A DNA stretch of 64,000 nt, taken from Candidatus Aminicenantota bacterium (lineage in GTDB: Bacteria > Acidobacteriota > Aminicenantia > Aminicenantales > Saccharicenantaceae). Made by a program: the position numbers and the translations under genes. The stretch covers positions 1,062,239 to 1,126,238 of the forward strand of contig JAGNLW010000001.1 of NCBI GenBank assembly GCA_017999365.1. Reading direction: 5' to 3'. Below, in pieces: positions 27,412 through 31,321 of the stretch. The first letter of the stretch is position 1. Every line of letters starts with the position of its first letter. The notes under the pieces are model-generated. The model had not been told where the DNA came from. It did not search any database and worked only from the letters and a program-made list of their open reading frames with translations.

Positions 27412-29172
27412 CTAATCGAGCTTGACCTTCGCCTCGCGGACGCCCCCGTGGGGCGAGGCGTAGCGGACCGTGATCTCGCCCTTGCCCTCGACCAGGAACT
27501 GGTGCTCGACCTTGCCGAAGCCGGGAACGACCGTGAACTGGAGCTCGGGCCGGTCCTTCTTGTAGACGGCCTGGTCGCGGTAGGGGTCGACGAGCGTCCC
27601 GCCCGCCACGACCTTGGCCCCGGGACCGGACACGGTCAGCATGTCCTGGGGATAGAGCTTGTTCTTCTGCGACAGGGCGCTCATGGTCGGCATGGCCTTG
27701 GGATTGGCCAGGCGCGTCCGGACCCGGAAGAGGCCACCGCCGAGGGGCTTGACCTCGAAGACCTCGAGCGAGACGTCGGGCAGGTGCTTGGCCGTGAACA
27801 GGGCGGCCATGGCGTTGCGGTGGACGAGATCCTTGATCATGAACGGGGCGCCGAGCCGGGAGCTCATCTTGACCCAACCGCCGATCTCGACGTCGCCGTA
27901 GGTCGGGTGCTTGAAGGCTTTCCAGGGCTTGTAGAGCTCGCCCTGGACGACGTTGTCGCTGAACTTGAGCCGCTCCTTCTCGGAGACGCGTTCCTCGAAG
28001 ATGCTCCGCACGGCCTCCTCGCGGGGGGTGCCCGGCTCGTAGCGCTCGGAAACGCCCTTGAAGGCCTCCGACTCGCCCTGGAAGACCTCGGCGCAGAAGA
28101 AGTAGGCGCCGGCGGTCTGGGTGATCCACTCGCCGGAGTCGCCGTAGGTCGTGTAGAGGTCCTTCCAGGAGATCATGTAGCGGTAGCCGGGGATGATGCG
28201 CTCGCCCTGTTTGCCGAGGAAGTCGTAGACCGCGACGTCCGAAGCCGGGTACTCGCCGAGCCCCTTGCGGCTGGGCCCGCGCAGGAGCATGCCGCCGTTG
28301 TTGTGGTAGGACCAGGCGAAGACGATGTTGGGCTTGGTCATCGTCCACTCGGCCAGGGCCTTGAGGCCGACGGCCTGGAACGGGTACTCGCCCGAGCCGC
28401 CCTGGACGTAGGGCGGGGCCCAGTCGAAGCCCCAGTTCCGGTTCGGGTCGACGTAGCCCTCGCCGTCCTCGTTGACCTGGCCGTCGCCGTCGTTGTCGAG
28501 GCCCTCCTCGCCGAGCAGGGTCCACTCTCCCTTCTCGCCGGGCTTGATGCGGACGAGGAGGCGCGGGTCCTCGGGATCGGTCTTGTAGGCGCCGAAGGGG
28601 TCCTTCTTGCGCATCTCGCAGAGGTTGCCGTCGCCGTCGAGGTCGTCGCTGCCGTCCTCGTCGACGAGCCCGTCGCGGTCGTCGTCGATGGGGATGCGCA
28701 GGGTCCGGTTGCTGCTGGGGTTGTTGGGGTCGGCGAAGAAGTGATGGCGGCCGTCGACGTTGGCGACGGGCACGACGTAGAAGCAGACCCGGTCGACGAG
28801 GGCCGTGATCTCGGCGTTGCGGCCGTAGTTCCCGAGGAGATAGTCCAGGAGGTAGAGCGAGATGTCGCCGCCCTGGATCTCGTTGCCGTGCATGTTGCCG
28901 TCGACGTACATGGCCGGCTTGGCGAGGGCCGCGCCGGTCTTGGGGTTGTTGACGGTCATGGCCATGATGGGCCGGCCTTCTTCGCTCTGGCCGACCGTCT
29001 CGAGCGAGGTCAGCTGCGGATAGGCCTTGTGGAGGGCCTCGAGGGCGGCGTAGACCCGGTCGAGCGAGTGGTACTGGTCGAACCGGAGGGGGACCTCGAC
29101 CCCGGCCTTCTGGGCCGGCAGGGTCGAAGCGACGAGGAACAGGACGAGCAGGGACAGGGCGAGCTTTCTCAC
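27412..29172 (-). CDS. M14-family zinc carboxypeptidase, secreted
   Basis: A 586 aa protein starting at GTG 29172, which overlaps the stop of the gene before it (GTGA); a signal peptide follows (RKLALSLLVLFLVASTLPA). Metal ligands are His95 and Glu98 (GNMHGNEIQGG) and His290 (AWSYHNNGG); substrate-binding Asn/Arg are in DPNRNWG (about 242-248). Acidic calcium-type loops DDDRDGLVDEDG and LDNDGDGQVNEDG (about 162-236) are inserted between the first ligands and the NRN motif. A beta-rich C-terminal domain follows (about 440-586). It should cleave C-terminal residues or act as a peptidoglycan or peptide hydrolase outside the cytoplasm. It is coupled to a degenerate paralogue. Confidence 0.9.
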   Translation of the reverse strand: MRKLALSLLVLFLVASTLPAQKAGVEVPLRFDQYHSLDRVYAALEALHKAYPQLTSLETVGQSEEGRPIMAMTVNNPKTGAALAKPAMYVDGNMHGNEIQGGDISLYLLDYLLGNYGRNAEITALVDRVCFYVVPVANVDGRHHFFADPNNPSSNRTLRIPIDDDRDGLVDEDGSDDLDGDGNLCEMRKKDPFGAYKTDPEDPRLLVRIKPGEKGEWTLLGEEGLDNDGDGQVNEDGEGYVDPNRNWGFDWAPPYVQGGSGEYPFQAVGLKALAEWTMTKPNIVFAWSYHNNGGMLLRGPSRKGLGEYPASDVAVYDFLGKQGERIIPGYRYMISWKDLYTTYGDSGEWITQTAGAYFFCAEVFQGESEAFKGVSERYEPGTPREEAVRSIFEERVSEKERLKFSDNVVQGELYKPWKAFKHPTYGDVEIGGWVKMSSRLGAPFMIKDLVHRNAMAALFTAKHLPDVSLEVFEVKPLGGGLFRVRTRLANPKAMPTMSALSQKNKLYPQDMLTVSGPGAKVVAGGTLVDPYRDQAVYKKDRPELQFTVVPGFGKVEHQFLVEGKGEITVRYASPHGGVREAKVKLD

Positions 29173-31196
29173 AGGGCACCTCCGAGGGCGACCGTCCGGG
29201 CGTCGCGCCAGGCGTTCCGGGTCTCGGCCTTGATCTCGACCTTGACCGGCTTGGCCGAGCGGACGAGCCAGGTCACGGTCTGGGCGCCGCGGGCCGGAAC
29301 GGACGGGACCAGGCTCCGTTTCTTGCCCTGGACGATCGTGACGCCGTCGCCGGCCAGGGTCACGACGACGGGCAGGACGCGCTGGTTGCGCCCGGCCATG
29401 GCCGTCGGGTAGGGCAGGTCGCCGGTGTTCTCGACCCAGGCCTTGACCTCGTAGAGGCCGGCGCCGAGCGGTTTGACGGCGGCGTCGGCGATCCGGACCC
29501 GGGCCATCTTCTTGGCCACTTCGAAGACCCAGGGGGCCTGACCTTTGACCAGGCCCTCGATCATCTTCTCGGGCGGCGTCGTGTCCGCGAAGGGCGCGAA
29601 GCCGCCGATCTCGGCCTCGCCGAGGGTCGGGTGCTTGAAGGGCTTCCAAGCCACGAAGCCCTGGCCGCCGAGCTCCTTGTCGCTCCAGGCGAGGAGGGCC
29701 TTCTCCTTGGGGTCGGCCCCGCCGGCGTCGGGCTTCTTGGGCATCTGCTTCATCATCTCGGCCATCTTCTTGGTGTCGATCTGGCCGGCCTTGATCATCT
29801 CGAAGACCTGCTTGGCCTTGAACGGCTCCGGTGCCCCAGCGGCCTTGAGGAAGGCGTCGACCTTCTCTTCGCCGAGGGCGACGAACTGGTCGTTGGTCAT
29901 GGCCTCGAGCTTCTCGGGCGTGAGCTCGTCGGCGGGCTTGTCCTCCTTGACTTCGGGCGGGGTCCAGAAGTCGAGGGCGAACGACGGCAGGCCGAGGTGG
30001 TAGTAGGCATAGAGCTCGAGCGAGCCGTCCCTGTCCGGCGCGGCCTCGAGCCGCTTGCCGTCGAGCTTGGCGGCCTTGAGGAACTCCTTGTATCGCTCGG
30101 AGAGCTCCGTGTAGAACTTGAGGTCTTCGTCGAGCGGATTGACCACGGCGCCGAGCTCGAGGAAGCCGGCGACCATGCCCTCGGTGACCTCCATGCCCGG
30201 CGGGACGAGGGGTTTCACCAGCTCGATGATCTCGGCCATGGTGTAGGTCCGGGTCGGGTCGGCGTTGATGAAGCCGGCCACGCGCTCGGGGACCTTGATC
30301 TGGTTGAAATCGGCGTCGCCCTTGCGCCCGCCGCGGGGCGGGGCGATGCAGAAATTGGCGCCGCCGAGGACGAAGGCCAGCCCGATCTCGCGGTGGAGGT
30401 CGAAGAACCGGAGCAGGGCGAAGGTCTCCGGTTCGCTGCCGGGCCAGGGGCCGGCGTCGGGGGCGTGGTATTTGTAGAGATGCGGGAAGGCCGTGCCGAG
30501 GCCGATGCCGCCGGGGCCGTCCTCGTCGATCAGGCCGTCGCGGTCGTTGTCGAGGCCCTCGGGATAGAGCTTCCAGACGCCCTTCTCGCCCTTGGCGCCG
30601 TCGGCCTTCTTCATGAGGCGGGCGTCGCCGGAGACGGCCATCCAGGCCCCCTCGGGGTCCTTGACCCGGATCTGCGTGATGAGCCCGTCGCCGTCGAGGT
30701 CGTCCGGCCCGTCCTCGTCGGTCGCGTCGTCCTGGTCGTCGTTCTTGGGCCGGGCGTTGCGCGTGTCCGACCGCCGCGGCTTGCCGAAATAGAGCGCGGC
30801 GGCGTCCGGGTTGCCGCAGGCCAGGACGTACCAGGTCTTGTCGGCCCGGAGGTCGGCCTTGGCGCATAGGGCCTGGGCCAGCCACAGCCCGGCCTCGGCG
30901 GCCAGGGGATAGGCGCCGTCCATGTCGGCGGCGACGAAGACGGCCGGCAGGCTCTTGGCGGCCGCGGCGGTCTCGGGCCCGATCTCGAGCAGGACGAGCT
31001 CGCGCCCGCCCGGGCTCTTGGCCAGGACGTGGACTTTGGCGAAAGCGGGATGGGCTTTGGCCAGGTCCCGGAGGGAGGCGGCGATCTCCTCGGGCCTGTG
31101 GTAGCGGTCGAAGGAGAGCTCGGCCGCGGCCAGGGGGACGAGGGAGAGGCAGAGAACACCGATGGCGAAGACGGCGGGGATGCGGCGAAGGGTCAC
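29169..31196 (-). CDS. M14-like secreted protein lacking zinc ligands (putative pseudoenzyme)
   Basis: A 675 aa protein starting at GTG 31196 behind GGAGGT, with a signal peptide (AVFAIGVLCLSLVPLAAA). It aligns along its length with the downstream M14 peptidase: SFDRYHRPEEIAASL at the start, the acidic loops DDQDDATDEDG and LDNDRDGLIDEDG, and a shared motif FVAWKPFKHPTLGEAEIGGF versus the neighbour's YKPWKAFKHPTYGDVEIGG. At the zinc site HGNE is replaced by DGAY (Asp93, Tyr96); the NRN motif is absent, and the third His position reads FVLGGANF. A Lys/Glu-rich helical insert (about 430-510) is unique to it. It may be a binding or partner protein for the active paralogue. Confidence 0.8.
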   Translation of the reverse strand: MTLRRIPAVFAIGVLCLSLVPLAAAELSFDRYHRPEEIAASLRDLAKAHPAFAKVHVLAKSPGGRELVLLEIGPETAAAAKSLPAVFVAADMDGAYPLAAEAGLWLAQALCAKADLRADKTWYVLACGNPDAAALYFGKPRRSDTRNARPKNDDQDDATDEDGPDDLDGDGLITQIRVKDPEGAWMAVSGDARLMKKADGAKGEKGVWKLYPEGLDNDRDGLIDEDGPGGIGLGTAFPHLYKYHAPDAGPWPGSEPETFALLRFFDLHREIGLAFVLGGANFCIAPPRGGRKGDADFNQIKVPERVAGFINADPTRTYTMAEIIELVKPLVPPGMEVTEGMVAGFLELGAVVNPLDEDLKFYTELSERYKEFLKAAKLDGKRLEAAPDRDGSLELYAYYHLGLPSFALDFWTPPEVKEDKPADELTPEKLEAMTNDQFVALGEEKVDAFLKAAGAPEPFKAKQVFEMIKAGQIDTKKMAEMMKQMPKKPDAGGADPKEKALLAWSDKELGGQGFVAWKPFKHPTLGEAEIGGFAPFADTTPPEKMIEGLVKGQAPWVFEVAKKMARVRIADAAVKPLGAGLYEVKAWVENTGDLPYPTAMAGRNQRVLPVVVTLAGDGVTIVQGKKRSLVPSVPARGAQTVTWLVRSAKPVKVEIKAETRNAWRDARTVALGGAL

Positions 31197-31321
31197 GTCG
31201 GGATACCTCCGTTCAAGAGGATGATCGGATCATTCTCGCAAATCGGGCGGGCGAAAGCAACGCGGACGCCCGGCGTCTCCTCTATATACGCATCGCCCTC
31301 GGCGTTAGTTCCTCCGTAAAT

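Follow-up and report, generated by a model that had tools for sequence, protein, structure and literature searches.

The locus described here raises the question of what a peptidase-like protein without a zinc site does beside a paralogue that has kept one. In the window, a stretch of 64,000 nucleotides from a Candidatus Aminicenantota genome, two genes for M14-like proteins lie on the minus strand, U first and D second (Table 1). A sequence-only reading of this DNA had placed both genes, their strand and their overlap correctly, with the bases GTGA common to the stop codon of U and the start codon of D. It had also held that this coupling keeps the two products in a fixed ratio; the 4-nt overlap does show translational coupling, but the claim on stoichiometry is too strong, as the pairs found in Bacteroidota and in the clades B and C described below are mostly gapped. 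In other words, an ATGA or GTGA overlap is found in nearly all pairs of the window's type (A-type) from Aminicenantes, while in Bacteroidota the stop codon of U is mostly followed by two bases and then the ATG of D, and in clades B and C mostly by a short gap with no overlap. Because GGAGGT stands inside U shortly before the start of D, D has a ribosome site of its own besides the coupling. The gene divergent from U presumably encodes an M24-type peptidase and the one past D a transporter of CorA type; these names were read off the sequence without a search.

Table 1. Features of the U-D locus, in coordinates of the window.
Feature	Position	Strand	Remarks
U, zinc-less M14-fold protein	29169..31196	-	675 aa; GTG start; N-terminal signal peptide (..LAAA/ELSFD)
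D, M14 metallocarboxypeptidase-like protein, catalytic set complete	27412..29172	-	586 aa; GTG start; signal peptide
GTGA, overlap of U stop (TGA) and D start (GTG)	29169..29172	-	read directly in the sequence
GGAGGT, Shine-Dalgarno sequence of D, within the end of U	29178..29183	-	spacer 5 nt; read directly
GGAGGT, Shine-Dalgarno sequence of U	31205..31210	-	spacer 8 nt; read directly
Pseudo-zinc loop of U, residues 92-98, MDGAYPL	30903..30923	-	aligned with MHGNEIQ of D
Zinc loop of D (HxxE), residues 94-100, MHGNEIQ	28873..28893	-	HxxE in 102/102 D
Acidic loops of U, calcium-loop-like (DDQDDATDEDGPDDLDGDG ... DNDRDGLIDEDG)	30507..30737, approximate	-	several acidic positions invariant in the U alignment
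Acidic loops of D, calcium-loop-like (DDDRDGLVDEDGSDDLDGDG ... DNDGDGQVNEDG)	28458..28692, approximate	-	many acidic positions invariant in the D alignment

Both proteins match the Pfam family PF00246 (Peptidase_M14), D with 133.7 bits (E 1.3e-38, cut-off 21.6) and U with 44.4 bits (E 2.1e-11), likewise above the cut-off, and all 73 members of the D family match it at E 0.01 or better; a search of NCBIfam returned no family for either protein. U and D share 34% identity over 243 N-terminal residues (E 5e-22) and again 34% over 127 residues of a C-terminal block, and a comparison of their profiles gives a probability of 100% (E 2.8e-65, 526 columns), so that we regard them as paralogues. The common layout that had been noticed from the sequence, with acidic DxDxDG loops and an FKHPTxGxxEIGG motif, is present in both. 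Structure prediction of each protein, which the sequence-only reading had proposed as a check, yielded confident M14 folds for the two single chains (AlphaFold2 mean pLDDT 87.3 for U and 86.9 for D). In Foldseek searches, the D model matched carboxypeptidases A and B best (CPA/CPB, E 2.3e-18) and the U model CPN, CPA and CPT (human CPN, E 2.4e-12). The placement of U in the family is based on the PF00246 match of the window's protein, the Foldseek result for its model and the profile-profile comparison with D, and U is confidently modelled as a protein of carboxypeptidase (M14) fold. Membership of M16 was considered for both proteins and ruled out by the M14 matches in the Pfam, PDB sequence and fold searches. 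Compared with the D model, the U model carries two extra, mostly helical stretches at approximately residues 285-400 and 415-510, the first of which replaces the M14 segment leading to the catalytic Glu; the substrate cleft of U is therefore probably remodelled.

The two families differ sharply at the active site. D has the full catalytic set, with HxxE (H95, E98), NRN (N244, R245), the third His (H290) and the catalytic Glu (E362), and its assignment to M14 follows from these residues together with the PF00246 match. No substitution of H95 or E98 occurs among 102 distinct relatives of D; H290 is present in each of the 101 sequences readable at that position, and E362 in 99 of 100, where the one deviating gene has a broken frame. 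At the aligned positions, U has D93, Y96, G234/T235, G278 and D409, and none of 110 distinct U relatives has any zinc ligand at its place: the position of H95 is taken by E, D, S, T or Q, that of E98 by V, H, T, N and others, and that of H290 by G in 95, S in 13 and D in 2, while the catalytic Glu is replaced in all 110 by D, N, P or rarer residues. The loss of HxxE, NRN and the third His from U was thus read correctly, with the refinement that DGAY is peculiar to the window: U proteins of the window-type clade (A) usually read N-x-E-G-x-x-P, and in clades B and C the motif is mostly E-G-x-H, i.e., ExxH in place of HxxE. Since clades B and C mostly show this swap to ExxH and, for the most part, keep NRN (L067-L086), the window-type U has lost more than its sister clades. 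Around the lost site U is nevertheless strongly conserved, with N91, G94, P97, G278, P404 and F406 nearly invariant in an alignment of 76 rows. Judged by these residues, U would not act as an M14 peptidase, as zinc ligands and catalytic Glu are both absent, and it qualifies as a pseudoenzyme that lost its catalytic residues and kept its fold under purifying selection (see below). That the locus encodes an enzyme/pseudoenzyme pair, as had been proposed, is strongly supported.

How constant is the pair? In the loci from the window's taxonomic order where both genes are readable, U and D are adjacent and co-oriented (at L077 the contig stops short of D), and among 80 named loci from public genomes, U is followed by D in 76, the contig ending first in the other 4. 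Both sets of loci were chosen through U, and two further samples were therefore searched with D as well. The 297 Acidobacteriota genomes of the first hold 48 D loci, of which 46 have U directly upstream and two (in G076 and G288) lie at contig ends; in 10 of the D-bearing genomes U had stayed under the first threshold, and reading the upstream region recovered it in 9, the tenth being G076. Among 80 Prolixibacteraceae genomes, D occurs in 25, each time with U upstream (25/25), 54 have neither gene, and one additional U lies at a contig end; the Fisher test on this table gives p = 7e-20, which is not a fair probability, as the genomes are related. In these two systematic samples, no D stands without U except at contig ends. 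Among the first 60 relatives, 5 genomes were without both U and D. Co-occurrence had been named beforehand as a point on which the proposal could fall, and it held. The pair is spread over Acidobacteriota/Aminicenantes, Bacteroidota, Chlorobiota, Balneolota and Zixibacteria, and no natural fusion of U and D was seen; plasmids gave no U pair and a single, weakly matching archaeal M14 gene, and phages no match to D. One match, listed as both L111 and L198, has a U broken by stop codons and a D of only 374 aa, so that either both members are broken or the sequence is misassembled.

The unit consists of two genes, since none of the families represented among 436 neighbouring frames at 80 loci is present at more than 8 of them; a wider operon was considered and rejected, as no other gene travels with the pair at these loci. 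Nearly all relatives of U and D begin with a hydrophobic export signal and few carry a lipobox-like motif, which suggests that both proteins reside in the periplasm or outside the cell. A different tandem in the same taxonomic order, the E-type pair (L167-L173, L177; e.g., G005:C108:2079-4824), serves as a natural control: like U and D, its two M14 genes are co-oriented neighbours that differ little in size, but both of its members keep HxxE, NRN, the third His and the Glu. Tandem M14 genes, in other words, do not routinely lose one active site.

In a maximum-likelihood tree of 100 sequences of U and D, all U form one clade (SH-aLRT 100) and all D lie on one side of a branch, although the support of the latter, 65, is weak. 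Clades A, B and C, a Zixibacteria-like pair and the pairs of the FCB group recur in both halves of the tree, and in all 38 sampled pairs the U clade matches its D clade, with no mixed pair even in genomes that hold two pairs, the window's genome included. The distance matrices of U and D correlate with r 0.94 (permutation maximum 0.23), a correlation that shows joint travel only, being expected from shared species history alone. Distances between U proteins are approximately 1.3 times those between D proteins, i.e., U evolves faster. Nonetheless, omega values (NG86, since YN00 gave no value for most pairs) within the genus are 0.255 for U and 0.241 for D, with 0.09 and 0.056 in clade B, and 0.39 and 0.28 in clade C; the absolute values are rough in a high-GC genome, and it is the comparison of U with D that counts. 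Relaxed selection on the zinc-less copy, the other point on which the proposal could have fallen, is not seen, as purifying selection acts equally on U and D (0.26 versus 0.24). Because U forms a single clade with an omega like that of D, we read the loss of catalysis as one old event after which U was maintained; the zinc site was lost long ago and throughout the U lineage, which is no local decay.

Taken together, the coupled operon, the catalytic asymmetry, the co-occurrence, the matched subtypes and the selection on both genes lead us to favour, with some reserve, a reading in which U and D are two subunits of one exported M14 peptidase, periplasmic or secreted. We infer that the two proteins bind each other, likely as a heterodimer. 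D would be the catalytic subunit, removing residues from the C-terminal side of peptides as its family does, and U a structural or substrate-positioning pseudo-subunit in a role like that of the inactive alpha subunit of M16B peptidases, supplying what D alone may lack, for example greater stability, one side of the cleft that takes up the substrate, or a site for holding and presenting it. U would be made first, and re-initiation at D would favour co-translational assembly. As a counterpoint, constant pairing in an operon also fits two proteins of one pathway that make no contact. The earlier interpretation stands in its core, an enzyme with a pseudoenzyme that came through the tests of selection and co-occurrence, while its fixed ratio made more of the overlap than coupling. 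A bolder version, which we offer tentatively and would hesitate to back as a whole, is that this is the first obligate heteromeric M14 peptidase, a carboxypeptidase in which substrate is bound or presented by a remodelled twin subunit free of zinc. The pair would have evolved independently of the alpha/beta design of M16, either becoming fixed a single time in a shared ancestor or passing between phyla at an early stage.

Other roles for U have to be weighed against the two-subunit reading. U might be a separate binding protein, its fold kept for a peptide or glycan of the envelope, that feeds D or senses its substrate with no stable complex; the conserved surroundings of a pocket that lost its ligands would suit such a role, and carboxypeptidase D (CPD) domain III, AEBP1 and CPXM have been described as binding other proteins (PMC11266112). 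A free-standing binder, however, would have no need to sit next to D in genome after genome and to match it in subtype, and we consider this unlikely. As an inhibitor, chaperone-like partner or safety subunit, U would keep D inactive until export or some trigger, much like a separate propeptide, which agrees with its being translated first and coupled to D, and with how little sequence separates the signal peptide of D from its M14 domain, leaving scant room for a propeptide. Yet U is larger than D and keeps an M14 fold and the surroundings of the pocket, beyond the needs of an inhibitor, so that this role is less likely and, in our estimate, improbable.

It would take more still for U to be an enzyme whose catalytic residues have migrated. 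The ExxH of 16 sequences from clades B and C, together with the NRN kept in most and an acidic residue three positions past the lost third His in most U of these clades, might hold another metal; nearly all of the window-type clade, however, is without both ExxH and NRN, in 108 of 110 U a G or S stands in place of the third His, none retains the catalytic Glu, and no third ligand is evident, which makes this reading very unlikely. Hardly credible, finally, is a decaying duplicate kept beside D by chance: the lost active site is what decay would leave, but a single ancient origin across phyla, intact frames, an omega equal to that of D and near-perfect co-occurrence all speak against it. Relaxed selection with chance co-retention of U is rejected by the equality of omega and by the genome samples searched with D.

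With the two-subunit reading in mind, the closest parallels lie in M16B, where MPP alpha/beta, TTHA1264/1265, SPH2681/2682 and AlbE/AlbF show the same arrangement, in bacteria with adjacent paralogous genes, of a zinc motif in one subunit only (PMC12731061, PMC11266112). The neighbouring genes TTHA1264 and TTHA1265 give an M16B heterodimer, TTHA1264 alone being monomeric and inactive, and SPH2681/2682 is another bacterial two-gene heterodimer of this kind (PMC12731061, PMC11266112). U and D belong to another family and have neither the clamshell fold of M16 nor its zinc motif HxxEH, and the complex shown for M16B is inferred for U and D; by analogy, the pair may be the M14 counterpart of these heterodimers and may work alike. 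Within M14, domain III of carboxypeptidase D (M14B) has kept the fold, lost its active-site residues, works with active M14 domains and has been proposed to present substrate (PMC11266112), but it is part of one eukaryotic three-domain polypeptide, related to U and D only as members of M14. AEBP1/ACLP, CPXM1, CPXM2 and Ecm14 are, like U, secreted M14 pseudopeptidases, with roles in collagen binding or unknown; unlike U, they are eukaryotic, stand alone without an operon partner and keep H69 and E72 (PMC11266112). These four and CPD domain III are the M14 entries in a 2024 review of metallopeptidase pseudoenzymes, all of them eukaryotic (PMC11266112), and our search, which covered a library of open-access papers (subscription journals lying outside it), turned up no description of paired bacterial M14 proteins of which one is inactive. 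The M14 pseudopeptidases that we found reported are thus eukaryotic, and the bacterial pair appears new in that respect. M14 pseudopeptidases have so far been a few eukaryotic proteins with roles that are hard to test, and an operon kept across several phyla offers a simple two-gene system in which to study what an inactive copy does for its active twin. The pair is a warning for annotation as well: a protein with a PF00246 match that would pass for a zinc carboxypeptidase may instead be a non-catalytic subunit, and D produced by itself might seem to have no activity, which was the case with TTHA1264 until the neighbouring protein was supplied.

Some further observations concern metal sites. 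The two DxDxDG calcium-loop-like stretches are conserved in U and D and, in U, are better preserved than the zinc site; by their sequence, the acidic loops of both proteins may bind calcium. The swapped ExxH motif of U in clades B and C (L067-L086) resembles a metal site and might still hold a metal. A second pair in the window's genome, outside the window (G000:C7:353087-356895, L079, approximately 4 kb), belongs to clade C, and its U reads FEGDHL, again with ExxH for HxxE. The same contig carries a single M14 gene (L080, G000:C7:435865-436818) that, like four others (L178-L181), keeps HxxE (RHSGEV) and has MDTT or MDTS at the third His, where Asp is perhaps the third zinc ligand.
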